A DNA stretch of 64,000 nt from Narthecium ossifragum. Taxonomy: Eukaryota; Streptophyta; Magnoliopsida; Dioscoreales; Nartheciaceae. The notes below the pieces were generated by a model. That model was not told where the DNA came from. It saw only the letters and a program-made list of their open reading frames with translations, and did not search any database. A program made the translations under genes and the position numbers. The DNA lies in assembly GCA_963920575.1 (NCBI GenBank), contig OY986966.1, forward strand, positions 12,006,048 to 12,070,047, written 5' to 3'. The stretch's first letter is position 1; every line of letters begins with the position of its first letter. Below, piece after piece: positions 9,002 to 51,714 of the stretch.

Positions 9002-9535
9002 TCATAGAACATCCATTCGATCATATAGAGGGTTATAATGCTTTTGGTTATACTGCTCATTCTGTAGTCGACCATTTAATTGGGGTATATCAGTTGGTCG
9101 ATAATTATTTTGAGGAGGTATGTCGTTTGGCCGATAATTATTTTGAGGCATATCATTTGGCCGATAATTATTTTGATGAGGTAAATCATTTAGCCGATAA
9201 TTATTTTGAGGAGGTATATCATTTGGCCGATAATTATTTTGAGGAGGTATATCGACCATCCTTGGACCGTTACCATTATTTCCAATCGGCCTATTATTTT
9301 GTCCGCCTACTTGACCAATACCTTGGCCATTATTATTTTGGCCAAAATTCTAGCCATTGTATGGGCCATTAGCATTTGGGACATTTAAAAGGATAGGATT
9401 AGTTGGATTAAAAGGAATACCATTATATGGTAATCCTATCGGGCTAACAATATATTCTGGGCTACCATTATTGAAGATTGGCTGCTGATTGTTAACACCT
9501 CCTTGCATATGTCCATGATATTGTTTAGAAATCAA
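9002..9535 (-). pseudogene. Gyp-B Asn/Pro-rich gag region
   Basis: Minus-strand stretches 9535-9350 and 9259-9002. The second contains five repeats of an 11-residue unit (NNYRPNDIPPQ and variants), encoded by 33-bp DNA repeats between about 9095 and 9250. The first is rich in Asn, Gly and Pro. I place it in gag because it follows the gag N-terminal region on the same strand and precedes the Cys-His segment. The plus-strand ORF over the repeat is its antisense shadow. Confidence 0.5.
9095..9250. repeat. 33-bp tandem repeat in Gyp-B gag
   Basis: Five copies of a unit with core CCGATAATTATTTTGAGGAG, one shortened by 3 bp. The length stays a multiple of three, consistent with expansion while the gag frame was under coding constraint. 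Confidence 0.8.
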
Positions 9536-26290: not shown

Positions 26291-26897
26291 ATTATATAAA
26301 GTTATTTTTACATAACTTTATGTTAACCAAGATGCATACTTATTCTATCCACATTCCAAACGGGCCATTTTATTCCTTTGAGCTATTTATCCAACCAATA
26401 GGGCAGTTGGTTTAACGATCCAATTCAAACTAGGACGATTCTAAATAGACCAAACATTTTGCTAGACGCACCCCATTTCTAAGTGCGCCACATCGAATTT
26501 TAAAAATACTATCTTTTTACTATATGGTCTTTTTCATAATATTCCTAATCTACCCTCAGCCCCATCGTCCCCAGTGTCCTCTACCTCCTGACCTCTTTCC
26601 ATTGATGACCGGTGACACGTTCAAAATAACCCTCCGGTTTCCCAAATATGACGACTTAAGGGCTAAGGTATGATCCGAGAGACCTATTGGAAAATCTGAA
26701 GGACCAGCTGGCTGCATTTTTCATTAGTGCTTGTGTTCGGTCAAAACAGAGGTTCATGACTCACCATTCCAGAGAGCTGTGTTCGGTCAGAAGTCATCGT
26801 TCTAAAGAACTCGCCTCGATCTAGAACAACAGACTAGGATTCGGCGCCGTTCTTGACCACTCGGGTCGGTGAAGCATGACCGTGCAAATGTTGAGAC

Positions 26898-27420
26898 TTC
26901 GGTCAAGAAAGACCGTTCATGAATATAAAGCTCAGTCAATATAGACCGAATATAATAGCATTGGTTAGTCCAAATGGACTGTTCATTAACAACTTGTTGA
27001 TTCGTGCTTGTTGTTTGAACTTAAGAACTCACTTCTCTATAAGCTAGCAGAGGTATAAAAGGCTTATCATTTAAACCTGTGCTGCACACAACAGAGGTTT
27101 AAATCCGTGCTATAAACAAAATTGAATTATTTAGTATGGAAATAAATGTTGCTACAATAATTTAGTTTGGTTATTATTATCGAGAATCGGTGATGGCCAA
27201 CACGAGTTATCGTGGGCGGTCAAGTATGACCGAACATATGAATTCTGTTTAGCCATATGCAGCCTAATCGAGTACATAACACTAATTAATGATTAGTTGC
27301 TACTCTAAATAGTTCAGTTATTATTGACCGAACAAAATAAAAGTATTCGGACACTGTTGGCCGATTCGAGTGGAATTGTTCGGCCACCAAAATTATCTCG
27401 AGCGGTCAATATCAACCGAA
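26898..27420. repeat. 20-bp dyad array in MULE-D
   Basis: Examples of NTCGG-N10-CCGAN dyads, each 20 bp, some with one or two mismatches in the arms: TTCGGTCAAGAAAGACCGTT at 26898, CTCAGTCAATATAGACCGAA at 26931, a degenerate one at 26964, then 27215, 27313, 27346 and 27401. Neighbouring members are 33 bp apart (26898/26931/26964; 27313/27346/27379). Confidence 0.75.
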
Positions 27421-27866
27421 GAGGGGTGCACTTAGAAATATTAGCTAAACATATAAATCCATATAAAAAAATATGTCAGTTCGGTTCTCCCAAATTGTAT
27501 AATTCAGCTCTAATCGGTCAGTTATGACCGACCAAGTTATTCGATTCAGTTCTACTTGAACCGTATAATTAAGCTTCAATCGGCTAGTTATGGCCGAACA
27601 ATGCAGTTCAAATTGGCCGATTCGAGTGGAATTGTTCGGCCACCAAAATTATCTCGAGCGGTCAATATCAACCGAAGAGGGGTGCACTTAGAAATATTAG
27701 CTAAACATAAAATCCATATAAAAAATATGTCAGTTCGGTTCTCCCAAACTGTATAATTCAGCTCTAATCGGTCAATTATGACATACCAAGTTATTCGGTT
27801 CAGTTCAACTTGAACCGTATAATTAAGCTTCAATCGGCTAGTTATGGCCGAACAATGCAGTTCAAA
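27357..27866. repeat. tandem duplication of about 255 bp in MULE-D
   Basis: Two adjacent copies (27357-27612 and 27613-27866), both starting TTGGCCGATTCGAGTGG, differing by a few substitutions and small indels. The unit contains several 20-bp dyads. Confidence 0.9.
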
Positions 27867-34479: not shown

Positions 34480-34893
34480 GAACAAGGGTATTTGAGTCAA
34501 ATAGGTGAAAGGATATGTTGGGTATTAAGTAATTTCTTTTACTGGGTCTATCTAGTAAATAGCGATGCTTTGTATACATACCCACGTTACATGTGTAATG
34601 CACATGCCGCAAATCGGTAGTGAGATACTGATTCTCTTTTCTAGTCCATCGGTAGTGAGCTCATTACCGATTGAATTATTGATCTAGTCTATCAGTAGTG
34701 AGATACCGATGAAATATATCAGGTAGTGAGATATCGATGAAATATATCAATCAATCGGTAGCTCATTGTTGGTATAATTCAATCGGTAGTCCACTGTCGA
34801 TTCATCTACCGATTGACTAGATGATGAAATATGCGGTGGACTACCGACACGTGGCATTTACGCAAAACTTTACTCATCTGCTCATCTAGGAAA
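34480..34893. repeat. MULE-C segment with ATCGGTAG dyads
   Basis: Non-coding. Starts GGGTATTTGAGTCAAATA, a stretch also present near the right end of MULE-D (28168). Then come dyads ATCGGTAGTGAGATACTGAT (34613), a 24-bp form (34648), ATCAGTAGTGAGATACCGAT (34691) and ATCGGTAGTCCACTGTCGAT (34782). MULE-A is inserted at its right edge. Confidence 0.7.
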
Positions 34894-34942
34894 GGGGGCG
34901 TTTATCGACACCACACAAACATCTACTCACACCACACTTTAC

Positions 34943-35904
34943 TCATGACACTACAGCCAACCCAAAATCTCGGTGCTTTATAGTGTTCCATATTTGACGT
35001 GGCTTCACTAGATTTATCGACATATCAACCACCAACTTCATTTCTTCCTCGGTTAATCTCCCGACATATGAGTGTCCCTCGAGGTAAACCGCTCTCGGGT
35101 GATTGTGCACTCCACATATAACCATCAACGTCCAATCATCATCATAGGCAAGCTTCATACCCCTGAAGCTTGAAGGGACAACCACACTTCCTCGTCCCGG
35201 AGTTGACAGTCTTCCTCTTTCGGGTGGTTAATGACATTTTTGAACTTGCATAATGCTCTACGACTGTTTTCCGATAAGCTCCACTTCGCTCACATGCCAA
35301 CGTGATCCTCGGCTTTCTACCGGCACCCCCGACCTCTGAATTCTTTATTACAACCACCAAGCCATTCTGTTTTCCAACTTGTTGTGTCCAGTGGATAAGT
35401 GTTTGGCGGCTGTGAAAGATCTAGAGATAAAAAATAATGATTAGAATGATGAATTATGACGCCACTAGTAGTCCAACTAAATATAACTACGGACATCATA
35501 CCTCGTCGGTTGTGAAGGCCTTGGTGTAGTCATAGTTGACACCCCCCAAATCTTCACCATTAAAAGTATAGCCCTGATAATAATCAAGCAATTAGCATTC
35601 GTAAACTCTGAAATTTGATTTGGGTCTTGAAGATCGTCGCAGACAACTATCGGTAGAATACCACCGATATACTATATTTAACTCGGTACTATACTACCGA
35701 TACATAGACGGTGCTGAGATACTGTTAGTAATTCATAAAAAACGGTATCTATGTACCTTTGAGTTGTGCAGGTGTATCGGTAATAAACTACCGATTAGTT
35801 CCGGATAGGGAAAAAAAGGACAAACGACGGAGTACGGGGATAATGAGCTGGGAATGCACCTTTTCTGGTGCAATTTCCTCGCCTTCCTCCTCTTCATTGT
35901 CCAT
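34943..35904 (-). pseudogene. MULE-A transposase, N-terminal fragment
   Basis: The exon structure parallels that of the MULE-B transposase: exon 1 35904-35860 (MDNEEEEGEEIAPEK), exon 2 35573-35502, exon 3 from 35420. Exon 3 holds a FAR1/WRKY-GCM1-like zinc-binding domain (FHSRQTLIHW, RKPRITLACERSGAYRKT, KCGCPFKLQG, ICGVHNHPRA). A frameshift near 35160 breaks it, and homology stops at about 34943 after LVKPRQIWNTIK. This domain binds DNA in the family. The DDE catalytic part is missing. Intron 1 holds a dyad array. Confidence 0.82.
35649..35795. repeat. 20-bp dyad array in MULE-A transposase intron 1
   Basis: ATCGGTAGAATACCACCGAT (35649), CTCGGTACTATACTACCGAT (35682), a degenerate copy (35708), AACGGTATCTATGTACCTTT (35741) and ATCGGTAATAAACTACCGAT (35776). 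Spacing 33, 26, 33 and 35 bp. Confidence 0.85.
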
Positions 35905-36790
35905 TTCCAACTGCCGCAACAGCTTTCTGCTTATTTTGGTGATCGATTGTGTCACGAGGGCAGGGCAACCGTGAGGGAGGTGGTATAAAAAGAAGAAAAG
36001 CGTGGAGAAGAGAAGAGTCTGTGGAGACAAGAGCCAGATGAGATGATCGGAGAAGATGATCGAAGATTGTCGGAGAAGATGACCGGAAAAGATGGCCGGA
36101 CGGAGAGGATGATCGGAGAAGATGAGGCATTTAAGGCAAGAGCCTGAGGTAGGTTGTAAAAGACTCTATTAACGTAAGGGTGCGGCTATCTGCACCACCG
36201 TTTTGACTCAACACACCACATTTACTCTACACACCCCAGCCCAAGTTTGAAAACCCCAGGTTTCACTCAACACACCACAAAAAATAAATCTACTTACTTA
36301 AACTACCCTCAAAATCCCACACCACACTAATAACTAAACCCTAAACCCTAACAAAACCCAAAATACCTACACTACCCCTCACCCCACTCCAGCCCCTACC
36401 TTCTTCCCCTCTTTTACCGAGACTTCCTCCCTCCCTCTTCTACCGAAGTCTCTCCCTCTCTTCACTCTCCCGACCATCTCCCTCCACCTTCCCAACGCCC
36501 TCTCCCGAACGTTGCCAGCCTCCCTACACCCGCGGCAGAGCCTCGCCGGCGAGCTATCCCCGCCTCCGTCGAGTCCGTCGAGTGAGAACCGTCGAGTGAG
36601 GTGAGGGGACAAGTGAGTTTTTCATTTCTTGTTGCATGAAATGCATTGTCTTTGCATATATAGCATTGGTTTTGCAGCATTGTTCTCCGAATGCGTTTTT
36701 TCCAAGGTTTTCAAATTTTTCCAATGGGTTCCGACCTTTCAGTTTTATACGTATCAATCGATACAAGACAACCAAATGATTCTCTATAAT

Positions 36791-37000
36791 ATCAGTACAT
36801 AGTCACCGATATGATAGGATTGTTGATCGGTACATAGGTACCGATCAATACGTTTGTTGCTGTATGGAAAAGAGCTCGTTCGGTATCAAGGTACTGATAG
36901 TTATTCTACACTATCGGTAACTTAATATCGATATGTATGCTTTATTACCAGTACTTAGGTACCGTTAATAACACTTAATTTCCGGTATATGGATACCGAA
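36791..37000. repeat. 20-bp dyad array just upstream of the PMD gene
   Basis: Six 20-bp dyads start at 36791, 36826, 36879, 36913, 36947 and 36981. The last four are exactly 34 bp apart. The best copy is ATCGGTACATAGGTACCGAT. The array ends 41 bp before the PMD start codon at 37042, so it lies in the promoter or 5' UTR. Confidence 0.9.
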
Positions 37001-37041
37001 ACGATCTACTAATCTTTGCATTTCTTTTTCAAAACAGTTAA

Positions 37042-39078
37042 ATGGTTCGTCCAAGGGGAAAAGCACCCGCCGGAGCCTCTTCATCTTCGGCGGCCTCGAC
37101 ATCTTCATCGGCCCGCGGTGACCGGCCGACGGCCTCAGCTAGGAGGAGGAGAGCGATACCTGAGGAGATTCCAGAGGAGATCCCAGAGGGTGCCTTGATG
37201 GTTGCTGGCCCTGGTGAAGAGGAAGAGGTGTCTGACGACGAGGCACCCATCCCTGGTGTGCCTGTTGACCGGTCGGTTTTGACGGAGTTCAAAACACACG
37301 TAGCATATCGGATATGGGTTGGAGCGGTAAAAAAAGGCTGAGTTTTTTTTTATATCATGCCGTGTTTATATCAAAGTCTGCTCACTTTTCCCCTTCTTCT
37401 CAACGTAGGAGCGTGGGCCACTAAAAATTTATGCACATGGCCTGTCCACAACGAAATGGGACGGCATCGAACGGCAAGACTTTAAGAGTGCCGTGGAGGC
37501 CACCGGTCTAGCAAATCTGATGGTGTGTTCTTACAAGACTATCAGCAGTGCCCTGGTGTCGGCGTTCGTCGAGAGGTGGCATCCGGAGGCCAACACGTTC
37601 CACCTGCCCTGTGGAGAGATGACGATCACTTTGGGTGACGTGAGGCGTATACTGGGCATCCCCGTCGCCGGTAGGCCGCTTGAAGAGTGCAAGCTGAAAG
37701 TCTCCCAGCTGAAAGCGCTTATGAAGGTTAATTTGGGAGTCAGTGAAGCAGAGGGCGTGAGCCAGTTGGATGGGAGAGGGCTGTCAGTCAGTATGACCTG
37801 GCTGAGGAGAGAGTGCACTCTCCGCAAGGTCGGCCTGGAGTGCTCTGTCAAGGCATACATCATGTATCTGCTGGGTTGCACCCTTTTTTGCGACAAGTCG
37901 GGGTCGAAGGTTCACGTGTCCTGCCTTTCTACCCTCACGGACTTGGATACTGTGTGTGAGTATGCGTGGGGTGCCGCCGGCCTCGTCTACCTCTATCGCA
38001 TGCTTGGCTCTGCCAGTCGATGGGGGACAAGGGCAATTGGCGGATACTTGACTCTGGTGGAGGTACGTACTTTTAAAACATCTGCTTTGTGATATAATAC
38101 CAATAATTGTGACTGACCCACATTTTTTTAATCAATACAGGCATGGATATATGATCACCTCCCGGTAATTATAAAGCCCCAGTCCGACCCAGAATACACG
38201 GTTGACGCGTCGACTGCTCTTGCGTGGCTGGATCACAAAGATCCAGGTCAGGATCCGGATATGGCTTTGCTTCAATGGCGCGCACAGATTGATTCTCTGA
38301 GTAGACATCATGTGAGTTGTAATCTTTGTCTGACTCCGAGTTGAATTTTGTAATATATTCAGTAGTGATCAAAATGCATATATTCCCTTACTATGAGTAT
38401 GGTTGCAGGTTGTGTGGGACCCATACGTCAGACATAGAGGAGGCCCCTTCCCTCGTGATGATATTAGCTTTTTCCTCGGCACCATAAGTAGCGGGGAGCA
38501 CGTCGAGCCGTACCATCCTGATCGGGTGCTTCGGCAATTCGGGATCATACAGACCATTCCCGCCGCCCCACTAAGGCCAACCCACTTCCACATGGGAGCC
38601 AAGGAGACTGCCCGAGGGTACAAGAGGGTCTTCCACTATGAGCCGCGGTTCTGGGCTGATTGGCCAAGCCACTGCACTGCTCTATGCCGGATGGGCGAGT
38701 ATGCTATCCGTGGGTATGACTGCGTGGATGGGTATTATGACTGGTATCGATCCATATCTCATGTGAAGGTCATAAACCTAGAGCGGAGGACTTTCCAGGC
38801 TGAATATGCAGATGATTATCTGCCGGCGAAGGTAACTTTTAGAAGTTCTAAATGGAAATGAAATACCAGCGCATAATATTATGTCTAATTTGTTACTAAT
38901 TCTTGAAATTCAGTATGATAGGATTGTCACGATCATCGACGACACCATGGCGCACATGGATACCCTGACCATTGACGACCATAGGAGTAGGTGGGCGCGG
39001 GCTCAAAGAATATCCCGCGGCGAGACTGACACGGAGCGCGCCTACGAGAGAAGATCTAAACAACGAACCAGAGAATAG
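37042..39078 (+). CDS. plant mobile domain (PMD / MAIN-like) protein, intact 5-exon gene
   Basis: Exons by GT-AG sites: 37042-37326, 37409-38062, 38141-38311, 38409-38831 and 38914-39078 (stop TAG), giving 565 residues with every junction in frame. The first 60 residues are Ser/Ala/Arg-rich, with a small repeat (PEEIPEEIPEG) and an acidic patch (GEEEEVSDDEAP). The PMD follows (about 85-500), with hallmarks FVERWHPEANTFHLPCGE, TITLGDVRRILGIPV, VKAYIMYLLGC, AWGAAGLVYLYR and RRTFQAEYADDYLPAK. PMD proteins occur as host MAIN/MAIL1-type nuclear proteins needed for meristem maintenance and TE silencing, and as TE-borne copies. Its position between MULE TIRs and convergent with a transposase points to a TE-borne copy. 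The biochemical role is unknown. The open frame suggests recent or ongoing selection. Confidence 0.85.
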
Positions 39079-39231
39079 CATGTATATTGATAGTATGAAT
39101 GTGTTTCCAATGTATGAACTTAATTGGATCCAATGTATGGACGTGTTTCCAATGTATAGACGTGTTATCAATGTATGGATGTGTTTCCAATGTAGAATTA
39201 AACCTCCCTCCCAAATACTCTTTTTTTTTTC

Positions 39232-39824
39232 CAAGTACGCAACTATCGGTACCCAAGTACCACTAATAACCAAGACACATATCGGTACTATACTACCGGA
39301 TATATACCGGACACTATCGGTGCTTAGATACCGAAACAAAGCCAATCAAGTAAAACAAACACTGTTTCGGTACTCACACTTCCGAACAGTGAAGCATTTT
39401 ATCGGTGCTATACTACCGATAAGACGCAGCTTATGCCTGCCTTTGATTCCATGTTTGATCGGTAGTATTGTACCGATAAAAGGCTTCACTGTTCGGAAGA
39501 GTGAGATACCGAAACAAAGCCAATCAAGTAAAACAAACAATGGCTCGGTACTCACTCTTCCGAACAGTGAAGCCTTTTATCGGTACTATACTACCGATCA
39601 AACATGGAATCAAAGGCAGGCGTAAGCTGCGTGTTATCGGTAGTCTAGTACCGATAAAATGCTTCATTGTTCGGAAGTGTGAGTACCGAAACAGTGCTTG
39701 TTTTACTTGATTGGCTTTGTAACGGTATCTAGTTACCGATAGTGTCGGGTATACATCCGGTAGTATGGTACAGATATGTGTCTTGGTTATTATCGGTACT
39801 TGGGTACCGATAGTTGCGTACTTG
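39232..39824. repeat. long near-perfect inverted repeat (hairpin locus)
   Basis: The left arm (39232-39512) and right arm (about 39545-39824) are reverse complements over about 280 bp with few mismatches and small indels; the loop is about 33 bp. Both arms start CAAGTACGCAACTATCGG, and T-rich or A-rich flanks extend the pairing slightly. The arms contain 20-bp dyads of the MULE family (39245, 39281, 39316, 39366, 39401, 39458). It lies between the 3' ends of the two convergent MULE-B genes. Read-through from either gene would give a long fold-back RNA. ORFs inside are by-products. Confidence 0.93.
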
Positions 39825-39960
39825 ATAAAAAAAACAGAGGATGAAACAAACCTTTGCAATACTTTGTTTACAACCATACAAGATACTCATACAATATTTG
39901 CAACACAATGTTTACAACCAGACAAGATATTAATCATATAAGACATTAATACCCAAATTT

Positions 39961-40254
39961 TCATTCAAGGTCTATAGTGTCCGTTGTAGCAACATCTGAT
40001 GACACGATTAACCCAAATTTTTCTATCTCATCGTTATAGGAATCCCATCCAATGGCACAAGCATCTCGATATCGAGCCCAGCTGCTGACTACTGGTGGCA
40101 TTGGACATCCAGGCTGCATGTGTAGTTGAACAAAGTGATTTCCGTTTACGAACCCGATCGCGATGATCCTCCGTGCCGGTTTCGGGGGCGCTGCTGTCCA
40201 AAGTGGCAGTAAGGTCACGCATTGTCTTCTGGAGATGTGAAGTAGGACAATCGA
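39961..40254 (-). pseudogene. MULE-B transposase, C-terminal part
   Basis: The minus-strand open stretch ends at a TGA at 39961-39963. It contains LLPLWTAAPPKPARRIIAIG, FVNGNHFVQLHMQPGCPMPP, SSWARYRD and YNDEIEKF. I associate this C-terminal region, from memory, with FAR1-type plant MULE transposases that end in an OTU-like or related module. An overlapping ORF in another frame (40267-40034) is a shadow or marks a frameshift. The rest of the gene lies at 48209-49996 beyond Gyp-C. At 40254-40255 the sequence switches abruptly to LTR-like DNA. Confidence 0.65.
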
Positions 40255-40425
40255 GTACGATACTCATCTTGCTGCTATACTGATCATACCGATTCGTGAT
40301 TCAAGGTCTATGTCCTTTAGTGTTTTACAATAATACACTCTACAAATCTCTGTGGGTACGATACTCATCTTGCTGCTATACTGATCACACCGATTCGTAT
40401 ACTTGCGAGATATAAAATTTATTCA
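40255..40425 (+). repeat. scrambled fragments of a Gyp-C-type LTR 3' end
   Basis: 40320-40425 matches the last 105 bp of the Gyp-C LTRs (ACAAATCTCTGTGGGTACG ... AAAATTTATTCATCA). 40255-40297 repeats an inner part of the same segment (TACGATACTCATCTTGCTGC). Between them lies GATTCAAGGTCTATGTCC, which resembles the end of the MULE-B transposase (39964). This is a rearranged junction rather than a complete LTR. Confidence 0.75.
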
Positions 40426-40672
40426 TCAAGAAGCAACGAAGAAGGAGATAAAAAGAAGAAGGTGGTTGCTTTCAAGTCATCTAGCAAAGACTCATCCGAT
40501 TCAAGTGAAGGAGATGATGATGAAGAATTGGCGATGATATCAAGAAGAATTCAAAATATTTTCAAGTGCCAAGAAGGAAAGAAATTGTTCAAGAAGAAAT
40601 TCCCCAAAGGTGAAAAATACAATGCTACTTCTTCTAACTCAAATGAAATCATATGTTATGAGTGTAGGAAGC
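40426..40672 (+). pseudogene. copia-type gag fragment beside Gyp-C
   Basis: The plus-strand open stretch reads KKVVAFKSSSKDSSDSSEGDDDEELAMISRR, then KKFPKGEKYNATSS and ICYECRK, the start of a CCHC zinc knuckle. Lys/Ser/acidic stretches before CYEC are typical of Ty1/copia gag C-termini. It ends at the Gyp-C LTR. No PBS or other copia part is visible, so it is a captured or orphan piece. Confidence 0.6.
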
Positions 40673-41046
40673 TGATAAGTGCATGAAAGTGCACTCTAAA
40701 TAGCCTTATAACCATCTCAATTGCTAGATTATTATCTTTATTCAACATCTTTATGCCTATTTTTATATCTATATGTTGCTTCACATAGTTGTTTGGAAAA
40801 TGCAGGAAAAAGGAGAAAAGAAGCTGAAAAGAGTGCATGGATCAACTTTAAAGATTTATCTGTACCTATTTATGAAGAACCAGAGGATGTGCCATACATG
40901 GTTGGAAAGCTCTTGAAGTCTAGATTCTGGAGAATTTTACGGTTCGTGATTCCGAGTTTCCTAGAGGAAGTTACGGCAATTTTAGTACCGATGACGCAGC
41001 CTGAATGGCAGCACAGTAAATAAGCTGGAAGTCCGAGCGATCCTCC

Positions 41047-41457
41047 GATCGATCGGACTACGCAAAAACGTGACAGAACCTATTTTTTTTGGCTGAACGA
41101 AGTCCGATCGATCTCTCCATCACTCCAAAGAAGTCCGATCGATCCGACACCAATGGTCCGATCGATCGGACTCGGGAAAAGTCAAAAACAGCGGATTTTT
41201 ACTCAACCGATCGATCCAACACTCATAATTCGATCGATCGGACTTGGGAATTAAAGGGTGACAGAACGTATGTTTTTTAGAGGAACACAATTCGATCGAT
41301 CGGACCATCGATCGAACTCGGGAAGAGCCAGAAATGAAGAATTTTTACGAAGTCGATCGATCCGACTCCCTTAGTCCGATCGATCGGGCTCGGGCGTAAA
41401 TAGAAGTGGGAGATCTCAATGAGACCGATCGATCCAACATTCCGAGGAGGATCGATC
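41047..41457. repeat. GATCGATC array in Gyp-C 5' LTR (copied at 46912-47321)
   Basis: Twelve GATCGATC or CATCGATC copies start at 41047, 41106, 41137, 41160, 41209, 41232, 41294, 41307, 41355, 41378, 41427 and 41450. Five neighbouring pairs are separated by exactly 23 bp (41137/41160, 41209/41232, 41355/41378, 41427/41450, with the fifth differing slightly in its core). The array ends about 55 bp upstream of the TATA box. Confidence 0.92.
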
Positions 41458-41510
41458 GGACGTTTCCAGTGAATTAAATCAACAGTTTTGATTTAACCCG
41501 AGTTTAGGCC

Positions 41511-41518
41511 TATAAATA
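41511..41518 (+). promoter_or_regulatory. TATA box of Gyp-C 5' LTR
   Basis: TATAAATA after GTTTAGGCC. The same site is at 47374-47381 in the 3' LTR and at 22545-22552 in the related solo LTR. It marks the U3/R area; transcription should start about 30 bp downstream. Confidence 0.8.
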
Positions 41519-42351
41519 GGATACTTAGGGTTATCAAAGGGGGACTTTTGGAGGACTTTTTGGCAGCGTTTGGAGGCGAAGAGAAGGGTTCCAGGCTTGA
41601 TTTTCTTTTCTTATTTCTTCTTTATTTCTCCATTAGTTTTGTTGCCCTCATGGTGAACATGAGTGGCTAGTTTCTTTTCTAAGGTACCGATGTAGCCCTA
41701 ACTGAATCATTCTATGTTATTGGATCATGATTATTTTATCAGTTTATTTTCCTTGATTTATTCATTATTTTAACTGAGATCTTAAATACCTTTATCTGGC
41801 CAATAAAAGTATTATAGATTGTTTTATGTAAGATTGGGCGAGGGTTCATTCCCTAATCTTGCAGGATCTATGAATGAATGAGTTTATGTCGAGGCCGGGT
41901 TCAAGCTAAGAGTATTCTTGGTTCATAATTGTTCTTCAGAGCTTAATGGATTCTTGGTTAACACTTAGTTATGGGTTCATTAACTAGGGTTAATTGGGGG
42001 TACTTGGTGAAGACCGCGGCCGAACGGATCATCATACCGGAAGAACGAGCCCTTGGAATTAAACTGAGATCTTGATTGATTCAATGCATAGAATGAGGAT
42101 GTTATGGTGAAATCGAAACCTTAGTATTCATCCATCATATTTCTATCGTTTTCTTATTTCGTTTTTAGATCATCTATCTTCGAGACTTCATATTTCTTAT
42201 TTTCCCTTCCTTATTTTCTTTCTTTTCTGTTCTTTAGCGTTTCACTCTAATAATTTCTACAAATCTCTGTGGGTACGATACTCGTCTTGCTACTATACTG
42301 ATTGCACCGATTCGTATACTTGCGAGATATAAAATTTATTCATCAAGTTTT

Positions 42352-42369
42352 TGGCGCCGTTGCCGGGGA
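42352..42369 (+). other. primer binding site, tRNA-Asp type
   Basis: TGGCGCCGTTGCCGGGGA, 6 bp after the LTR end, is complementary to the 3' end of plant tRNA-Asp, as in Athila-type elements (from memory of that tRNA). It primes minus-strand cDNA synthesis. Confidence 0.85.
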
Positions 42370-42530
42370 TTTGATTAGAGTTTATTTGTAGTGAATGCTA
42401 GGTCGCCGATCACGGAAAGAAAAGTTGTTGCCCTTGAACGATAAAGTAGATCAAATTGGTTGGAAGAAGAAATCTAACAAAGAGGAGATGGCGCTCAATA
42501 ATAGGAGTTCAAGAGGAGGAACAAGAGGAG

Positions 42531-45500
42531 ATGGCGCTCAATAATAATTTACGTCCTTTGGAGGAGTACGCGAGGCCTACTATTTCTACCTCACCTTCGT
42601 GCATTGCGTTACCTGCAGAGGCTAGAAATTATGAACTTAAAAATCTACATTTTTCTATGCTTCCTGAATTTCATGGTTTACCTTCTGAGGATGCACTAAC
42701 TTTTGTGAAAGATTATTATGCTACTATTCAGACTTTTCCTTTAGGTGGCATTACTGAAGATCACTTGAGGATGCGATGTTTTCCTTACACCCTGAAGGAT
42801 AAAGCGAAGAGATGGCTGATGTCGTTGCCTCCTGGATCACTCACGACTTGGGATGCAATATATAATAAGTTTGTTAGCAAATTTTATTCTCATGCCATGA
42901 CTACTAACTTGAGAAGACAAATTCCAAATTTTCAGCAAGCTGATGGAGAACCATTCCATGAAGCATGGGATAGATTTAAAATGCTTTTGATGCAATGTCC
43001 ACATCATAATTATTCTTTAGAAAATCAGATGCAATATTTTTATGATGGACTAAATCTTTCTTGTCAGACTATGGCAGATAATGCTGCAGGTGGAGCGATG
43101 TTCAAAAGGACACCACCGGAGGCATATGAAATCTATGAGATGCTAGGATCAAACTCGCAGCAGAGGGACACGAGGAATAAGGCGAGAGGCATCTATGAGC
43201 TGAACCAGAATGATGACATGGCAAGGCAGATTGCAACTCTTAACAAGAAGATAGACGCGATGATGTCCACACAAGCAAAACCGGTTGAGGTTTGTTCAAT
43301 TTGCAATATTGTTGGTCATAGGTTTGATTCATGTCCTTCTAGTAGTGAATTTCCTGAATATGTGCAAGAGCAAGCTAATTTGATGAATGCGTATAACCCG
43401 AGACCTAGATTTGACCCTTATGCAAATACTTACAATCCTGGTTGGAGGGAGCATCCGAATTTTTCATGGAAAAATACTGCTAATGCTAGTATGCCTACTG
43501 CTAATCAGTCTAACCCACCTGTTAAGTCGTCTTTGGAAGCGACTATGTTAGCTTTTATGCAGAAAATAGATTCAAAGATGGAAAAACAAGATTCAGCCAT
43601 TGCTCAACATGACGCGGTACTAAAGAATGTTGCAGCATCCGTTGGGAAGTTAGAAGTTCAAGTGGGACAACTTGCTGATGCGGTACGAGCCCATGTCCCA
43701 GGCAAATTCCCAAGCCAACCTGAGCAAGCGAAAGCAGTTACAGTTCTTCGTTCAGGTAAAATTATTGATAATAAGATTAATGCTAAAGTTGCTGATGAGT
43801 GTAATGATGATGCAAGTGAGGAAGTTGAAACGGAGGAACGCTCGAAAGGGCCACCACCGGCCACATCTGCTGCTGAGCATGGAAAGAGAGCAAATTCAGT
43901 TCCGGAGGTTTATCACAACTCTCCTCCACCATATGTGCCGCCGGTTCCTTTTCCAGGCCGTCTAAAGAAAGCCAAAATGGATAAGTCATATTCTGAAATT
44001 TATGATATTTTATCTAAGGTTAATGTGAACTTACCATTGCTTGAGGTGATCAGGAACATGCCAGCATTTCCAAAGTTCTTCAAGGAACTAAGTACTTCAA
44101 AGCGTAAGTATGAACCTCATGAAAAAGTGATGGTTTCAGAGACGGTAAGCGCGGTTCTACAAAGGAAGCTTCCACCCAAGCTTAAGGATCCAGGGCGTTT
44201 TAACATTACTATTACTGTTGGTGATACAAAGATAGGAGAGGCAATGCTTGATTTAGGAGCCAGTGTTAATTTGATGCCTTACTCTGTTTTTCTTCAGTTA
44301 TGTGTGGGTGAATTAAAACCTACTACAATGTCTCTACAACTTGCAGATCGTTCCATTAAATATCCATTAGGCATTGTAGAAGACATTTTAGTACAAGTTG
44401 ATAAATTGATTATCCCTGCTGATTTTGTGATATTGGATATGGAAGATGCGCCCTTACATGATAGGAATTTACCAATTTTGTTGGGACGTCCATTTATAGC
44501 CACAACCAAGACTATGATAAATGTGCAGGATGGTAAGCTCAGCATGACAGTTTTAGGTGAAACTGTTGAATTTAAAGTTTTTGAATCTATGTCCTATCCT
44601 TCAAACTCTTTTGATTGTTTCTCAATAGATGCTTTAGATTCATTGGTGTTTTCTAGTTTCATGCAGGAGCAAGTGAAGACTACTCTAGAAGCGGCATTGA
44701 CGATGGAAAAGGAGGAGTTGCAGAATTACGAGGGAGCAAAGGAGGTTATAGCAGCCCTTGAGGCATTGCAGCCATGTTTCCCTGATGAATCTCGGTTAGA
44801 CATGCTAAACGAATCCTATTCTAAAATGGTTTCATCAATAGTTTCCCCACCAAAGCTTGAGTTAAAACCTCTTCCTAGTAATTTGAAATATGCATATCTT
44901 GGTGAGAATGAAACCCTTCATGTGATTATTGCTTCTGACATTACTCCATTGGAAGAGGAAAAATTATTGAGAGTTCTTAGGGAGCATAAAACTGCAATAG
45001 GTTGGACAATTGCAGATATTAAAGGAGTAAGTCCTACTATGTGCATGCATCGCATTATTTTGGAAGAGGATGCCAAACCTATACGGGATGCCCATCGTCG
45101 CCTCAACCCAAACATGAAAGACGTTGTTCGGGAAGAGATCCTTAAGTTGCTCGATGTTGGCGTGATTTATCCTATTTCTGACAGCAAATGGGTAAGTCCA
45201 GTTCACGTGGTGCCTAAGAAATCAGGGATAACAGTTGTGAAGAATGAGAACAATGAGCTCATACCCACGAGGATGACTACTGGATGGCGTGTCTGCATCG
45301 ATTATCGCAAGCTTAATGCAGCTACTAAAAAGGACCACTTTCCTTTACCTTTTATTGATCAAATGCTTGAACGCTTAGCTGGTCACTCATTTTATTGTTT
45401 TCTTAATGGATTTTCAGGTTATAATCAAATTGCTATCGCCCCAGAGGACCAAGAGAAGACAACTTTCACCTGTCCGTTTGGAACATTCGCATACAGAAGG

Positions 45501-46514
45501 ATGCCGTTCGGATTGTGCAATGCACCTGCCACCTTTCAAAGATGCATGATATCGATTTTCTCCGACATGATAGAAAGGTTTGTCGAGGTATTCATGGATG
45601 ATTTTTCTGTATTTGGGAATTCTTTTGATAATTGCCTGGCACACCTAACCTTGGTGCTTAAAAGATGTGAAGAGACAAATTTGACATTGAGCTGGGAGAA
45701 GAGTCACTTCATGGTAAGGCAAGGTATTGTGTTGGGACATGCTATTTCTAGTAAAGGTATTGGCGTAGATAAAGCAAAAATAGATTTGATTGAGAAATTA
45801 CCGCCCCCTACTTCTGTGAAAGGTGTGCGGAGTTTTTTGGGCCATGCAGGATTTTATCGCAGATTCATTAGAGATTTTTCTAAAATTGCACAACCATTGT
45901 GTGATTTATTGGCCAAAGATAGTGAGTTTAAGTTTTGTAAAGCTTGTCTTGATGCTTTCAATACTTTGAAAGAGAAATTGATTACTACACCAATTATTAT
46001 GCCTCCTGATTGGTCGTTGCCCTTTGAAATAATGTGTGATGCTTCTGATTATGCTATAGGGGTTGTTCTAGGACAAAGGGTAAATAAGGTCTCTCATGCT
46101 ATTTATTATGCAAGTCGTACACTCAATGATGCTCAAATCAATTACTCAACTACTGAAAAAGAATTACTTGCTGTTGTTTTTGCATTGGAGAAATTTCGTT
46201 CTTATTTGATTGGATCTAAAGTTATTATTTATTCAGATCATGCAGCATTGAAATATCTACTAACCAAAAAGGATACAAAGCCAAGGTTAATCAGGTGGAT
46301 CCTACTGCTGCAAGAGTTCGATTTGGAAATAAGGGACAAGAAAGGGAGCGATAATGTAGTGGCAGATCACTTGTCACGATTGGAGCACATAGCCGGCCTT
46401 AAGGATGTACAACCCATCCAAGAATGCTTTCCCGATGAACAACTATTTTCTGTGAATGGTAAAGAGCCCTGGTATGCGGATATATTTTATGCGCTTAAAA
46501 TTGCTAGAGACTAG
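42531..46514 (+). CDS. Gyp-C Gag-protease-RT-RNase H polyprotein (no integrase)
   Basis: 1327 codons from the first in-frame ATG (42531); the frame is open upstream to about 42456 without an ATG. Order: gag domain (about 20-210; FPYTLKDKAKRWLMSLPPGS, QYFYDGLN), CCHC knuckle CSICNIVGHRFDSC (about 255), protease (MLDLGASVNLMPYS, ILLGRPF; about 560-660), RT (about 850-1040; WRVCIDYRKLN, FLNGFSGYNQ, FMDDFSVF) and RNase H (about 1150-1260; MCDASDYAIGVVL, TEKELLAVV, YSDHAALKYLL). The first catalytic RT Asp (normally FLDG) is Asn. The protein stops soon after the RNase H domain, and only 21 bp separate the stop from the PPT area, so integrase is deleted. Probably translatable but not self-mobile. 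Confidence 0.92.
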   Translation: MALNNNLRPLEEYARPTISTSPSCIALPAEARNYELKNLHFSMLPEFHGLPSEDALTFVKDYYATIQTFPLGGITEDHLRMRCFPYTLKDKAKRWLMSLPPGSLTTWDAIYNKFVSKFYSHAMTTNLRRQIPNFQQADGEPFHEAWDRFKMLLMQCPHHNYSLENQMQYFYDGLNLSCQTMADNAAGGAMFKRTPPEAYEIYEMLGSNSQQRDTRNKARGIYELNQNDDMARQIATLNKKIDAMMSTQAKPVEVCSICNIVGHRFDSCPSSSEFPEYVQEQANLMNAYNPRPRFDPYANTYNPGWREHPNFSWKNTANASMPTANQSNPPVKSSLEATMLAFMQKIDSKMEKQDSAIAQHDAVLKNVAASVGKLEVQVGQLADAVRAHVPGKFPSQPEQAKAVTVLRSGKIIDNKINAKVADECNDDASEEVETEERSKGPPPATSAAEHGKRANSVPEVYHNSPPPYVPPVPFPGRLKKAKMDKSYSEIYDILSKVNVNLPLLEVIRNMPAFPKFFKELSTSKRKYEPHEKVMVSETVSAVLQRKLPPKLKDPGRFNITITVGDTKIGEAMLDLGASVNLMPYSVFLQLCVGELKPTTMSLQLADRSIKYPLGIVEDILVQVDKLIIPADFVILDMEDAPLHDRNLPILLGRPFIATTKTMINVQDGKLSMTVLGETVEFKVFESMSYPSNSFDCFSIDALDSLVFSSFMQEQVKTTLEAALTMEKEELQNYEGAKEVIAALEALQPCFPDESRLDMLNESYSKMVSSIVSPPKLELKPLPSNLKYAYLGENETLHVIIASDITPLEEEKLLRVLREHKTAIGWTIADIKGVSPTMCMHRIILEEDAKPIRDAHRRLNPNMKDVVREEILKLLDVGVIYPISDSKWVSPVHVVPKKSGITVVKNENNELIPTRMTTGWRVCIDYRKLNAATKKDHFPLPFIDQMLERLAGHSFYCFLNGFSGYNQIAIAPEDQEKTTFTCPFGTFAYRRMPFGLCNAPATFQRCMISIFSDMIERFVEVFMDDFSVFGNSFDNCLAHLTLVLKRCEETNLTLSWEKSHFMVRQGIVLGHAISSKGIGVDKAKIDLIEKLPPPTSVKGVRSFLGHAGFYRRFIRDFSKIAQPLCDLLAKDSEFKFCKACLDAFNTLKEKLITTPIIMPPDWSLPFEIMCDASDYAIGVVLGQRVNKVSHAIYYASRTLNDAQINYSTTEKELLAVVFALEKFRSYLIGSKVIIYSDHAALKYLLTKKDTKPRLIRWILLLQEFDLEIRDKKGSDNVVADHLSRLEHIAGLKDVQPIQECFPDEQLFSVNGKEPWYADIFYALKIARD

Positions 46515-46523
46515 CAATAAGCT

Positions 46524-46535
46524 GGTTGGGGGGTG
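46524..46535 (+). other. polypurine tract of Gyp-C
   Basis: GGTTGGGGGGTG directly precedes the 3' LTR start TGATAAG and is the expected plus-strand primer. Confidence 0.85.
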
Positions 46536-48208
46536 TGATAAGTGCATGAAAGTGCACTCTAAATAGCCTTATAACCATCTCAATTGCTAGATTATTATCT
46601 TTAATCAACATCTTTATGCCTATTTTTATATCTATATGTTGCTTCACATAGTTGTTTGGAAAATGCAGGAAAAAGGAGAAAAGAAGCTGAAAAGAGGGCA
46701 TGGATCAACTTTAAAGATTTATCTGTACCTGCTTATGAAGAACCAGAGAATGTGCCATACATGGTTGGAAAGCTCTTGAAGTCTAGATTCTGGAGAATTT
46801 TACGGTTCGTGATTCCGAGTTTCCTAGAGGAAGTTACGGCAATTTTAGTACCGATGGCGCAGCCTGAATGGCAGCACAGTAAATAAGCTGGAAGTCCGAG
46901 CGATCCTCCGATCGATCGGACTACGCAAAAACGTGACAGAACCTATTTTTTTTGGCTGAACGAAGTCCGATCGATCTCTCCATCACTCCAAAGAAGTCCG
47001 ATCGATCCGACACCAATGGTCCGATCGATCGGACTCGGGAAAAGTCAAAAACAGCGGATTTTTACTCAACCGATCGATCCAACACTCATAATTCGATCGA
47101 TCGGACTTGGGAATTAAAGGGTGACAGAACGTATGCTTTTTAGAGGAACACAATTCGATCGATCGGACCATCGATCGAACTCGGGAAGAGCCAGAGATGA
47201 AGAATTTTTACGAAGTCGATCGATCCGACTCCCTTAGTCCGATCGATCGGGCTCGGGCGTAAATAGAAGTGGGAGATCTCAATGAGACCGATCGATCCAA
47301 CATTCCGAGGAGGATCGATCGGACGTTTCCAGTGAATTAAATCAACGGTTTTGATTTAACCCGAGTTTAGGCCTATAAATAGGATACTTAGGGTTATCAA
47401 AGGGGGACTTTTGGAGGACTTTTTGGCAGCGTTTGGAGGCGAAGAGAAGGGTTCCAGGCTTGGTTTTCTTTTCTTATTTCTTCTTTATTTCTCCATTAGT
47501 TTTGTTGCCCTCATGGTGAACATGAGTGGCTAGTTTCTTTTCTAAGGTACCGATGTAACCCTAACTGAATCATTCTATGTTATTGGATCATGATTATTTT
47601 ATCAGTTTATTTTCCTTGATTTATTCATTATTTTAACTGAGATCTTAAATACCTTTATCTGGTCAATAAAAGTATTATAGATTGTTTTATGTAAGATTGG
47701 GCGAGGGTTCATTCCCTAATCTTGCAGGATCTATGAATGAATGAGTTTATGTCGAGGCCGGGTTCAAGCTAAGAGTATTCTTGGTTCATAATTGTTCTTC
47801 AGAGCTTAATGGATTCTTGGTTAACACTTAGTTATGGGTTCATTAACTAGGGTTAATTGGGGGTACTTGGTGAAGACCGCGGCCGAACGGATCATCATAC
47901 CGGAAGAACGAGCCCTTGGAATTAAACTGAGATCTTGATTGATTCAATGCATAGAATGAGGATGTTATGGTGAAATCAAAACCTTAGTATTCATCCATCA
48001 TATTTCTATCGTTTTCTTATTTCGTTTTTAGATCATCTATCTTCGAGACTTCATATTTCTTATTTTCCCTTCCTTATTTTCTTTCTTTTCTGTTCTTTAG
48101 CGTTTCACTCTAATAATTTCTACAAATCTCTGTGGGTACGATACTCGTCTTGCTACTATACTGATTGCACCGATTCGTATACTTGCGAGATATAAAATTT
48201 ATTCATCA
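46536..48208 (+). repeat. Gyp-C 3' LTR
   Basis: Same length and ends as the 5' LTR. The TATA box is at 47374-47381. It abuts MULE-B transposase coding sequence at 48209. Confidence 0.95.
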
Positions 48209-49996
48209 GATGCCCCAAGATGCCTCTTTAACTTGGCATGTGCACTCTCTACCCTGTTTGTAGTGTGATTGCCAAAATGCATATATTCGTCAGTCCAAGC
48301 ACTGACGAACAGTTCTTTGAAGCCATCCAGCCACGATTCCCGAACATATTTAGAAGCTGCTGGGCAATCGCAAAAAGATGTCTCTAGTGTCTCCAAGTGT
48401 TTCTTGTACTCCTCCTCGGTAGATGCAGTTACAACCAATTTCCACATTGTCATGAACAAGTCGGCTTTATCTGCAGTTTCGAAAATGTGTTTGCAGCTGA
48501 GCTCTACGTTTTTTTGGATATGCCATCTACATAGCATGCTTTTGGACTTCGGAAAGACCGAGCTGATAGCGTTCATCAAAGCCAGTTCTCGGTCTGTCAC
48601 CACAACGCGTGGCATTGGGCATCCTTCCAACAATGTCCTTAATATTTTCAAAGCCCATGTGTACCTGTCCTCCTTCTCACACTCCATGTAGGCAAAAGCT
48701 GCGGCGAATGTCATACTCGTCGACGTGACGCCAACAATCTCTAGCAGTGGAAGTCGGTATCTATTGGTCTTGTAGGTGCAATCCATAATCAACACCTCGG
48801 GAAATGCACGGACTAAATCAATAGACACAGGGTGTGCCCAGAATATGTCCCTCACAGCGTCTGTGTCTTCTCGAACCGTATGATACTCAACGTATCCAAA
48901 CTCATTTAGATGCTTCAATAGTTGCTACATCTCTGATCTCCCAGCCTTTTCAATCACCCTATTCCTTTGGCGTATATTATAGATGATCTTCATGGTGGAT
49001 ACGTTTTCAGGATCTTGTTGCTTTATAGTGTTCAGGATTTGCCGTGGCTTCACTAGGTTTGCTGACATCGTAACTACCATATCATTTTGTTCAGCAGATA
49101 ATCTTTCGGGGAACGAGTGACCCTCGAGGTGATCCGCATGGGGGTGATTGTGGACTCCGCAAATAACTCTGAGCATCCAATCATCATCAGATACAAGCTT
49201 CACGCCCTGAAGCTTGAAAGGACATCCACACTTCTTCGTCCCGGAGTCGACGGATTTTTTCTTTCGATTGGCAAATTTTTTCTTCCCGCTATCATCTTTC
49301 TTCACAGTTTTCCGATACTCTCCACTACGCTCACATGCCAAGGTAATCCTCGGCTTTCTACCACACCCCCCGACCTCTGAATTCTTTGTCACAATCACCA
49401 GCCTATTCTGCCTCCCAACTGTCTGTACCCATTGGACAAGTGCTTGTCGACTTTGAAATATCTATAATCAAACAATAAGAATTATGTTAATCAAACAATA
49501 AGAATTATGTTAATGAACTTTAGACCTAGTTGTCGTCCGGCAAGATATAACGATTAAACAACATACCGTACTGGTCGTGAATTCCAGGGTGTAGTCGTGA
49601 GTAATTATAGCTCCCACACCGCTCGCATCAGTGGAAACATGCTCCTGAATGTAAGCAAAGAGTTAGTAAGGTAGGTAGCCAACACTGTGTTCACATCGGT
49701 ACCATGGTACCGGTATACTAACGTATTATTCGGTACCATTTTACCGGTATATAAAGCTATAATTTCGGTGGATACTTACCGGTATACATAGCATACTAAT
49801 CGGTACTATGTTACCGGTACATAATGCCAAAGTATCGGTTGATACATACCGATACGTTGACGTTTTCTGTAGGTCTGATAGTACCGATCAAAACGCGATC
49901 CGGGAAGGACAAAAAAAAACAAGAGAAGAGGAGATGTACATTTTTTGAGGGCCTTTTCTCGTCTCCTTCGCTCCAGCATTCGTCTTCTCCATCCAT
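48209..49996 (-). pseudogene. MULE-B transposase, N-terminal and catalytic part
   Basis: Minus-strand exons: 49996-49940 (MDGEDECWSEGDEKRPSKN), 49644-49567 and 49461-48209, all phase 0. A FAR1-like DNA-binding domain lies in exon 3 (FQSRQALVQW, ITLACERSGEYRKT, KCGCPFKLQG, VHNHPHADHLEGHS). The MULE DDE domain follows: first Asp in LIMDCTYKTNRYRLP, second in VVVTDRELALMNAI, CRWHIQKNV, and Glu in TTNRVESAHAKLK. It would cut and join the MULE ends. It is inactive here: a TAG at 48922-48924 interrupts exon 3 (codon 180 of that exon) and Gyp-C cuts the gene at 48208. The remainder is at 39961-40254. The plus-strand ORFs here are shadows. Confidence 0.9.
49695..49888. repeat. 20-bp dyad array in MULE-B transposase intron 1
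   Basis: Six dyads start at 49695, 49729, 49764, 49799, 49834 and 49869 (steps 34, 35, 35, 35, 35), for example ATCGGTACCATGGTACCGGT and ATCGGTTGATACATACCGAT. It is in the same intron as the MULE-A array. Confidence 0.92.
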
Positions 49997-50556
49997 TTCG
50001 ACCTAACACACCTTGAATCGACAATGTATAATGGGGAGGGCTTGTGTGAGTTGAAAACCTAAGGTTGGAGGAGATGGTTTGGAGTATAATGTGAATATGT
50101 TGGGAGGATAAGAAAGAAGATAGAATATGATGAGGGTAGGGAAGAACTATCTAGGATGGAGGGGGAGTGAGTAACTTGAAGACCTAGGGCTTGGAGGGAG
50201 GAGATGGTTAGGGATTGGAGGAGGTGAAAATTCGGTAGTAAGAGGTAGGAGAAGATGATGGTTAGAGGTAGGAGAAGATGTGGTGTTGTGGTGTATTGAG
50301 AAATAATTTTTATGGTAGATTAGGTTTTGTGGTGTATTGTGTTTTAGAAGGTTATTTTGGACATTTCATCAATGGGTGTTTTGGGTATGAAAATTGCTGT
50401 GGTGTGTTAAGTCGGAACGGTGGTGCGGATAGCCACACCCTTCACGTAATTATACCACATAAGAGATGGGGCAATTGAGACATTTCATCTTAGGGTATTG
50501 TTGGTATAAAAATCTGTGGTGTGGTAGATGCTTGTGTGGTGTCAATAGCCGCAGCC
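49997..50556. other. right non-coding arms of MULE-B and MULE-A
   Basis: No gene seen. 49997-50300 is GA-rich (GGAGGAGATGG-type words), the presumed promoter side of the MULE-B transposase. The MULE-B TIR ends at 50440. The MULE-A right arm (50441-50556) repeats the theme (GGACATTTCATC-like text, then GTGTGGTGTCAATAGCC). Confidence 0.7.
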
Positions 50557-50583
50557 TCAGGAAAACTTCGGCAGTATTTAGAA

Positions 50584-51714
50584 GGGTGCGTCTATTGACA
50601 CCGCCCAAATGACTAAGGACACCACCCACTTTTTGATTTTCCTAAACTACCCTTGTCTGTTCGGATATAAAAAGTCGAACATATAGTTAATGTTCGGTTT
50701 TTAAAAATCGACTTAGTGTTCGGGTTTTAAAAATCGAATGTGTGCTTAATGTTTGGTTTTTAAAAATCGAACTTGTCTTCAAAAAAAGGACACCGCCCGG
50801 CGAGATCTTCTTCAGCGGCTTTCCTCATCTTCCCCGAACGGGGCAGGGTTCTACACAAAGCTGGAAAGACGCGTGCAGAGACTAGATCAACGTGGGACGG
50901 CCGGAGAAGAGCACCTCGCAGTCAGGGAAGAGAGCACCGTGGGAGAAGACCGGAGCAGGAGTAGAGCTCACCGTCAACCAGAGATACCCAGATCGGAGAA
51001 GCCGCGATCTGGCTTGGAAGCGTTGTCGGAGAAGAGCTTGCTGATCTAGGCTAGAGAGGACTTGCCGCCAGAGGAGAGAAGCGCGTCGTCACCGGAGAAG
51101 AAAGAGACGAGGCCTCGTCGGAGTCCTTGACTTGCTGCAGAAGAAGGTTGAGGCTGCCGGAGAAGAGCTCGTCGTGGTCTGCCACCAAAGAAGAGATTCG
51201 CGTTGCCGAAGAGCACCTCGCAGCCTAATGAAGGAGCCCCCGGAGTCCTTGACTTGCTGCGGAAGAAGGTTGAGGCTGCCGGAGAAGAGCTCGCCGGAGT
51301 CCTTGACTTGCTGCGGAAGAAGGTTGAGGCTGCCGGAGAAGAGCTCGTCGTGACCTGCCACCAAAGAAGAGATTTGCGTTGCCGAAGAGCACCTCGCAGC
51401 CTAATGAAGGAGCCCCCGAAGGAGAAGAAGAGCCACCGTCGTCTGAAGAAAAAGATCCTCAGGACTCGATGAAGTAGGTGGAACAGAGGGAAGCAAGGGA
51501 AGCGTCGCCGGGTGGTGTCCTTTTTTTGAAGACAAGTTCGATTTTTAAAAACCAAACATTAAACACACATTCGATTTTTAAAACCCGAACACTAAACCGA
51601 TTTTTAAAAACCGAACATTAATTATATATTTAACTTTTTTATATCCGAACATACGTTGGTAGTTTAGGAAAATAAAAAAATTGACCGTGTCGTTGGTCAT
51701 TTGGCGGTGTACCC
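50584..51714. mobile_element. MULE-P: Pack-MULE-like element, perfect 9-bp TSD
   Basis: TSD TATTTAGAA at 50575-50583 and 51715-51723. TIRs of about 215-220 bp (50584-50804 and 51501-51714, inverted) start GGGTGCGTCTATTGACACC and GGGTACACCGCC. Each TIR holds four 20-bp dyads such as TTCGGTTTTTAAAAATCGAC (50660, 50693, 50719 and 50752 on the left). The 0.7-kb interior is GC-rich with internal repeats and may derive from gene sequence (Pack-MULE). It encodes no transposase. It inserted in the right terminal repeat of MULE-C, 188 bp before the SCD1 start codon. Confidence 0.93.
51119..51420. repeat. GC-rich direct repeats inside MULE-P
   Basis: Three copies of a unit of about 53 bp with GGAGTCCTTGACTTGCTGC and GAGGCTGCCGGAGAAGAGCTC. 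A following segment (CTGCCACCAAAGAAGAGATT ... AATGAAGGAGCCCC) occurs twice. Open frames exist on both strands across the repeat, and I recognise no protein. Confidence 0.85.

Follow-up and report, generated by a model that had tools for sequence, protein, structure and literature searches.

The window analysed here, a stretch of 64,000 nucleotides of Narthecium ossifragum (contig OY986966.1, positions 12,006,048 to 12,070,047), holds nested Mutator-like elements (MULEs). Coordinates are those of the whole window, and L-numbers denote loci fetched from the same genome. The central element, MULE-B (36178..50440), is an autonomous-type MULE delimited by terminal inverted repeat (TIR) alignment, with TIRs that begin GGGTGCGGCTATC... 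and a 9-bp target duplication, TTAACGTAA/TTCACGTAA, alike at 8 of 9 positions by eye. It is split by an insertion resembling a long terminal repeat retrotransposon, whose pol open reading frame (ORF) spans 42450-46514. Two genes converge inside MULE-B. The PMD gene on the plus strand has a main exon of 227 amino acids (37409..38089; PF10536, 137.5 bits, cut-off 34.9) and a later exon (38397..38858; PF10536, 35.5 bits against the same cut-off). The transposase gene on the minus strand comprises a MULE catalytic domain (48202..48924; PF10551, 93.9 bits, cut-off 27.6) and a FAR1/AFT-like N-terminal part (48928..49461), in which the FAR1 and AFT matches both stay below cut-off. An in-frame stop at 48925-48927 parts the two transposase ORFs of this copy; several other copies have longer open frames around it.

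Three arrays of a 20-bp dyad occupy the non-coding parts of MULE-B. The first lies in the PMD leader (36791..37000, six sites at 36791, 36826, 36879, 36913, 36947 and 36981), stops shortly 5′ of a CAG acceptor-like site and a probable ATG at 37042, and probably sits in an intron of the 5′ untranslated region. The second lies in the transposase leader (49695..49888), where six sites at 49695, 49729, 49764, 49799, 49834 and 49869 follow each other in steps of 34-35 bp. The third (39245..39811, ten sites) lies in the space separating the PMD gene from the transposase gene, whose 3′ ends face each other, and forms an inverted repeat (39222-39505 and 39551-39834) with arms of 284 bp that are 93% complementary. 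Among three other loci tested for such repeats, L068 and L070 have similar large ones. If 39222-39834 is transcribed, the RNA could form a foldback that supplies small-RNA silencing; an anti-silencing site would then lie inside a silencing trigger.

The first-pass annotation had described the dyad as NTCGG-N10-CCGAN. A dyad, in places degenerate, is present at all 21 of its positions, but the exact pattern holds at only four (35649, 35682, 35776 and 49834). ATCGGTA-N6-TACCGAT is a better consensus, against which all 14 sites listed for MULE-B and the adjacent MULE-A score 11-14 of 14. The window contains 23 sites at ≥12/14 and 30 at ≥11/14, compared with 0.2 and 2.15 expected (means of 20 first-order Markov resamplings); 29 of the 30 fall within 34613-49869, and 10 belong to the array 3′ of PMD, which was absent from that annotation. 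We also counted matches of at least 7/8 to TCGG..CCGA by region, with 50 resamplings each. The non-coding parts of MULE-A and MULE-B are enriched (4 vs 0.50, 5 vs 0.16, 8 vs 0.12 and 7 vs 0.18 expected), whereas the PMD gene (1 vs 0.66) and the transposase (1 vs 0.36) show no clear enrichment. Neither does the inserted retrotransposon (0 vs 1.56) or the remaining window (4 vs 6.70, 4 vs 2.02 and 2 vs 1.24). Across the 379.4 Mb scanned in 150 contigs, exact ATCGGTA-N6-TACCGAT occurs 4,165 times and exact TTCGGTT-N6-AACCGAA 368 times, against 3 and 5 for the same patterns read backwards; the looser TCGG-N10-CCGA gives 10,992 against 7,321.

The arrays recur in related copies; for these, protein searches of the genome listed at least 150 exons each for PMD and for the transposase. 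Thirty PMD loci of the B family were fetched, the window copy among them, and every one has the leader array (6-7 sites in 29 of them, two in L028). The same is true of all 20 transposase loci fetched from the B family, again including the window copy, with at least four sites each. The array 3′ of PMD is found in 23 of the 30 loci, and some misses may be explained by the fetched stretch, which ends ~2.2 kb after the exon start. TA-type dyads, with half-sites as in ATCGGTA, occur in the PMD leader and 3′ of PMD in the 64% family (three PMD loci) and the 80% family (one locus); the 58% family (two loci) has TTCGG..CCGAA dyads in both places, and the 321-aa family (L044 and L045) has TA-type dyads 3′ of PMD. 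Transposase-leader arrays are present in L053 and L054 (58% family, TT type), L055 (321-aa family) and L058 (64% family), and also in L081 and L082, whose more distant transposases (57-58% identity) carry 33-bp TT arrays. No dyads were seen in the 4-7 kb read at L056, nor at L057 and L060 of the 80% family. A listed PMD exon lies within 15 kb of 72 of the 107 transposase matches at ≥61% identity, on the opposite strand in all 72 pairs. In two 64%-family elements (L039 with L051, L040 with L052) two PMD genes stand in tandem, with dyads before each.

The geometry of the dyad is rigid. In 107 kb of fetched sequence, sites at ≥12/14 have a gap of 6 in 115 cases, of 5 in one and of 7 in four; a second peak at 26-27 (10 and 19 sites) stems from neighbouring dyads. 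The step between dyads is looser. When a dyad was retained only with another within 80 bp, 114 adjacent steps fell below 120 bp, 59 of them measuring 33-35 bp. The figure of 33-35 bp describes the autonomous-type elements fairly, whose steps run from 33 to 36 bp with larger gaps too, but not the short elements, which use 28, 35 and 49 bp instead.

One half-site type fills all three arrays of a family, and the types, TA and TT, differ between families. For the TA type (82 dyads from four families), arm positions that site selection left free hold 0.38-0.98 bit, spacer positions 0.06-0.22 bit and most linker positions less than 0.1, with a maximum of 0.23; one period away, an echo reaches up to 0.38. 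The TT type is represented by 39 dyads, of which one family supplies 33; here linkers reach 0.70 bit, as expected for units of one family. Between families, half-sites persist and linkers change. These values bear on neutral minisatellite turnover, in which one unit would have spread by tandem duplication, leaving the arms as mere remnants. Some arrays are indeed tandem repeats by Tandem Repeats Finder, the number of sites differs between copies, and the linkers of the TT set, mostly one family, share some information. However, TA-set linkers share little across families where half-sites persist, and PMD-leader linkers diverge three times faster than arms. We regard such turnover as a very improbable origin of the pattern. 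The 58% family (L043, L054) shows a polarity within its dyads: T occupies position 6 in 11 of the 33 left halves but in 27 of the 33 right ones (P 0.00014). The direction is the same in all three arrays, significant by itself only in the 3′ array, and the dyads lean one way along the whole element although its two genes run opposite.

Another explanation is hairpin formation by the dyads, in RNA or in DNA, as a source of small interfering RNA or as cruciforms. The arms are inverted, and the 3′ array of MULE-B is itself a 284-bp inverted repeat. We compared opposite arm positions with those obtained by shuffling one arm, in five families of 17-36 dyads each, samples that give limited power. Within families, complementarity at positions 1-7 equals the shuffled expectation, with no P below 0.07; the hairpin reading is disfavoured by this lack of compensatory change, small as the samples are. 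Pooling the families yields an excess at positions 1 (P 0.006) and 7 (P below 1 in 2,000), because the families differ in the half-site used. This is the pattern that two half-sites facing one protein specificity would give. Three pairs of inner positions have low P-values that we cannot explain (B family 10/11, 0.001; 321-aa family 8/13, 0.017; pooled 8/13, 0.025), and they speak for pairing. The gap fixed at 6, however, argues against it, and 700-bp 3′ pieces of four other families lack an inverted repeat. Hairpin function therefore seems to us a faint prospect. The arrays, their geometry, their placement and the family-wise shift of half-sites are all directly observed.

Conservation between copies of one family is less telling. 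In the PMD leader (29 of the 30 B loci, with L028 left out), divergence is 0.021 in arms, 0.044 in spacers, 0.066 in linkers, 0.017 in the non-array flank and 0.025 at third codon positions, and a sliding mask is lowest at shift +1, then 0. In the transposase leader (20 loci), arms stand at 0.019, linkers at 0.024, spacers at 0.047 and the rest, including the exon, at 0.017; arms and linkers do not differ significantly (P 0.34, 20 loci), and the mask is lowest off the dyads, at shifts -14 and -12 (0.015, compared with 0.019 at shift 0). The proposed comparison of dyads with neighbouring non-coding DNA came out mixed: relative to in-array linkers, arms are conserved in the PMD leader but not significantly in the transposase leader, and in neither leader do they diverge less than sequence outside the array (0.017 in both). 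Within families, arms are not conserved above ordinary flanks, and the strong evidence lies between families.

Which protein would read the dyads? The first-pass annotation had suggested a dimeric factor encoded by the element, either transposase or PMD protein, and the sites do look dimer-type and family-specific, with persistent half-sites, no within-family covariation and a gap fixed at 6. A structure model of the PMD main exon built from 66 sequences (an earlier five-sequence model, with a pLDDT of 37.5, was discarded) resembles the VANC21 fold according to Foldseek. The PMD protein is therefore predicted to have a VANC21-like fold, which strengthens the comparison with VANDAL elements and their VANC proteins made from the sequence alone. 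DUF1985 scores 19.4 bits in the PMD protein, below its cut-off of 35.1; DUF1985 matches appear in 5 of 5 PMD proteins at E ≤1 and in 40 of 66 at E ≤0.1. Sequence-only PDB searches found no VANC relative. We propose that a protein reads the two inverted half-sites (A/T)TCGGT(A/T), with their fixed 6-bp gap, as a dimer or symmetric pair, and that the PMD protein of the same MULE family would be the likeliest reader. By analogy with VANC21, PMD would occupy the arrays of both gene leaders as well as the one between the genes, and may thereby counter the silencing of its family, short elements with the same dyad included. PMD binding, dimerisation and anti-silencing are what we infer from site pattern, predicted fold and analogy, and we give the proposal as a whole slightly better than an even chance.

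The transposase is another candidate. Its FAR1/AFT-like N-terminal domain may bind the arrays and so serve either autoregulation or transposition. A leader array is present in at least one copy of each transposase family whose leader was read, two of them with no PMD nearby among the at least 150 exons listed; L059 is a copy without the array. The tree of transposase N-terminal parts (six rows) has one split, supported at 100/99, that separates TA from TT types exactly, and the dyads of MULE-P, another element of the window, lie within its TIRs. The arrays of MULE-B, however, are not in its TIRs: they lie ~550-610 bp inside the ends and in mid-element, and what the mid-element array would contribute to transposition is not evident. 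In addition, the FAR1 and AFT matches are below the Pfam cut-offs, whereas for PMD the predicted fold gives an independent connection with an array-binding protein. We therefore consider transposase binding unlikely, if worth keeping in view. A host transcription factor might instead read the dyads, the elements using them as enhancers or intron-borne activators. The arrays in the leaders of both genes would suit such a factor, as would the thousands of dyads genome-wide, some of them in short elements, but the half-site types, one for all three arrays of a family, are better accounted for by a factor evolving together with the element. This makes a host reader quite improbable.

Several observations weigh against PMD as the reader. 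The fold match comes from a predicted model of one exon at 10-11% identity, and no Foldseek match of the PMD model reached E 0.001. The PMD tree places the 58% family as sister to TA-type PMDs (96/95), so the half-site split fits the PMD and transposase trees alike and co-evolution cannot name the binder. No dyads are found in the PMD leaders of the 321-aa family (L044, L045). L059, a 321-aa-family transposase whose start follows L056, has none at ≥11/14 in the ~960 bp before it; its leader holds repeats of another kind, possibly with an insertion there. L081 and L082 have clean arrays and no nearby PMD among the at least 150 exons listed, and by the same list a PMD accompanies 4 of 43 transposases in the 55-59% band, in no case on the opposite strand. 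Among the 107 closer transposase matches, 35 likewise have no listed PMD. The excerpted reports on VANC21 describe its motif as a 9-mer arrayed in one orientation, with no dyad (PMC5735166, PMC10398659). The Arabidopsis PMD proteins MAIN and MAIL1 act in silencing, and the DOWN motif associated with them is CATGCAGTTT (PMC7156037, PMC9899485).

Other elements of the window carry dyads as well. The MULE-A array (35649..35795; sites at 35649, 35682, 35741 and 35776) has steps of 33, 59 and 35 bp. In the 64% family, the transposase leader of L058 holds an array (2390-2536) with the same steps and with two identical sites and one near-identical site in common. MULE-A is therefore probably a deleted member of that family. 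MULE-D dyads (26865..27852), several with a TCGGTC..GACCGA core, confirm the array reported there (13 vs 0.46 expected, first steps 33 and 33), but the listed site 26964 is weak. The subterminal dyads of MULE-P (50660..50771), of the TTCGGTTTTTAAAAATCGAA type and spaced 33, 26 and 33 bp inside the TIR, agree loosely with their earlier description: they are in excess (4 vs 0.78 expected) with the first steps of 33 and 26, but the right half is TCGAA or TCGAC, not CCGAA. By eye, they resemble the transposase-leader array of L081 (TTCGGTTTTTTAAAACCGAA, 33-bp unit), from a more distant transposase family, and the MULE-P TIR resembles the L081 element end. A different 33-bp tandem repeat (L081:2346-2441, with a TATGTACCGTACATA palindrome) lies ~700 bp outside the L081 element, with no dyad connection seen. 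In the window, positions 9084-9253 form a 33-bp tandem repeat of 5.2 copies, located within ORFs of a separate repeat region; the repeated unit differs from the dyad.

A short element adjoining MULE-A (34600-34880) has dyads at 34613, 34691 and 34782 (34613..34801; 3 vs 0.04 expected in the regional count). This element and L001-L008 are built mostly of the dyad, in units of 28, 35 and 49 bp. By eye, L001-L003 and L005 are runs of dyads that extend over a few hundred bp and have inverted ends. The first 100 genome matches (contig C1) include 69 pairs no more than 150 bp apart, 42 of them at a multiple of 7; all pairs were counted, and they are not independent. If an anti-silencer is recruited by the dyads, such short elements would naturally ride on it for free.

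Known systems resemble MULE-B in different respects. Zn2Cys6 proteins, a fungal family, bind as dimers to Put3-type sites, CGG-N10-CCG, and the MULE-B dyads have an identical geometry of inverted CGG triplets; no Zn2Cys6 domain is among the Pfam matches of the four element protein pieces scanned. VANDAL21 of Arabidopsis, with its VANC21 protein, is an anti-silencing MULE with motif arrays in intron, intergenic and terminal non-coding parts that shift between related families, according to the available passages (PMC5735166, PMC10398659). Like VANDAL21, MULE-B is a MULE with a Mutator-type transposase and further genes, non-coding motif arrays that diverge between families, and a protein predicted to share the VANC21 fold. 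Where VANC21 has a 9-mer in one orientation, MULE-B has a dyad of 20 bp whose 6-bp gap is rigid. VANDAL TIRs are described as degenerate in the part of the report consulted (PMC10398659), whereas those of MULE-B are clear; VANC carries DUF1985, whereas the MULE-B protein belongs to Pfam PMD and matches DUF1985 only below cut-off. Sequence-specific loss of methylation, brought about by the VANC protein, is a further trait of VANDAL elements. We tentatively suggest, at somewhat less than an even chance, that PMD and VANC are branches of one transposon-borne DNA-binding superfamily reading self-made arrays, here as a dimer on 20-bp dyads, with the dyad amplified in free-riding short elements. Among the papers that our literature searches listed, in some cases the top entries of many, none was seen on dyad arrays in PMD-carrying MULEs or on a PMD-VANC fold link; no publication behind 9lnj was found, and the fold link may already be in print.

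In the accessible portions of the literature, the function of the PMD domain remains to be determined (PMC5418596) and its mode of action is largely unclear (PMC9899485). A predicted VANC-like fold and a precise, countable cis-site beside the gene would make PMD action testable, and the TA and TT types offer two natural half-site classes for specificity studies. If correct, our proposal would point to sequence-specific anti-silencing as a broader strategy of MULEs, not confined to VANDAL, in which protein and site co-evolve. MULEs of grasses and Amborella also have PMD inside the element; there PMD-C is described as fused to the transposase, and an anti-silencing use was speculated on in the pages concerned (PMC5418596). 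In MULE-B, by contrast, PMD is a separate gene that converges on the transposase and is accompanied by dyad arrays. MAIN/MAIL1-PP7L and MULE-B have in common PMD proteins tied to a short DNA motif and to transposon control. MAIN and MAIL1 are host proteins on the silencing side, with the DOWN motif in promoters, to which direct binding was not demonstrated in the extracts on it (PMC7156037, PMC9899485), whereas the MULE-B PMD is encoded by the element and associated with dyad arrays; if PMD and VANC do form one superfamily as suggested above, these host proteins would be relatives of an anti-silencing DNA-binding protein.

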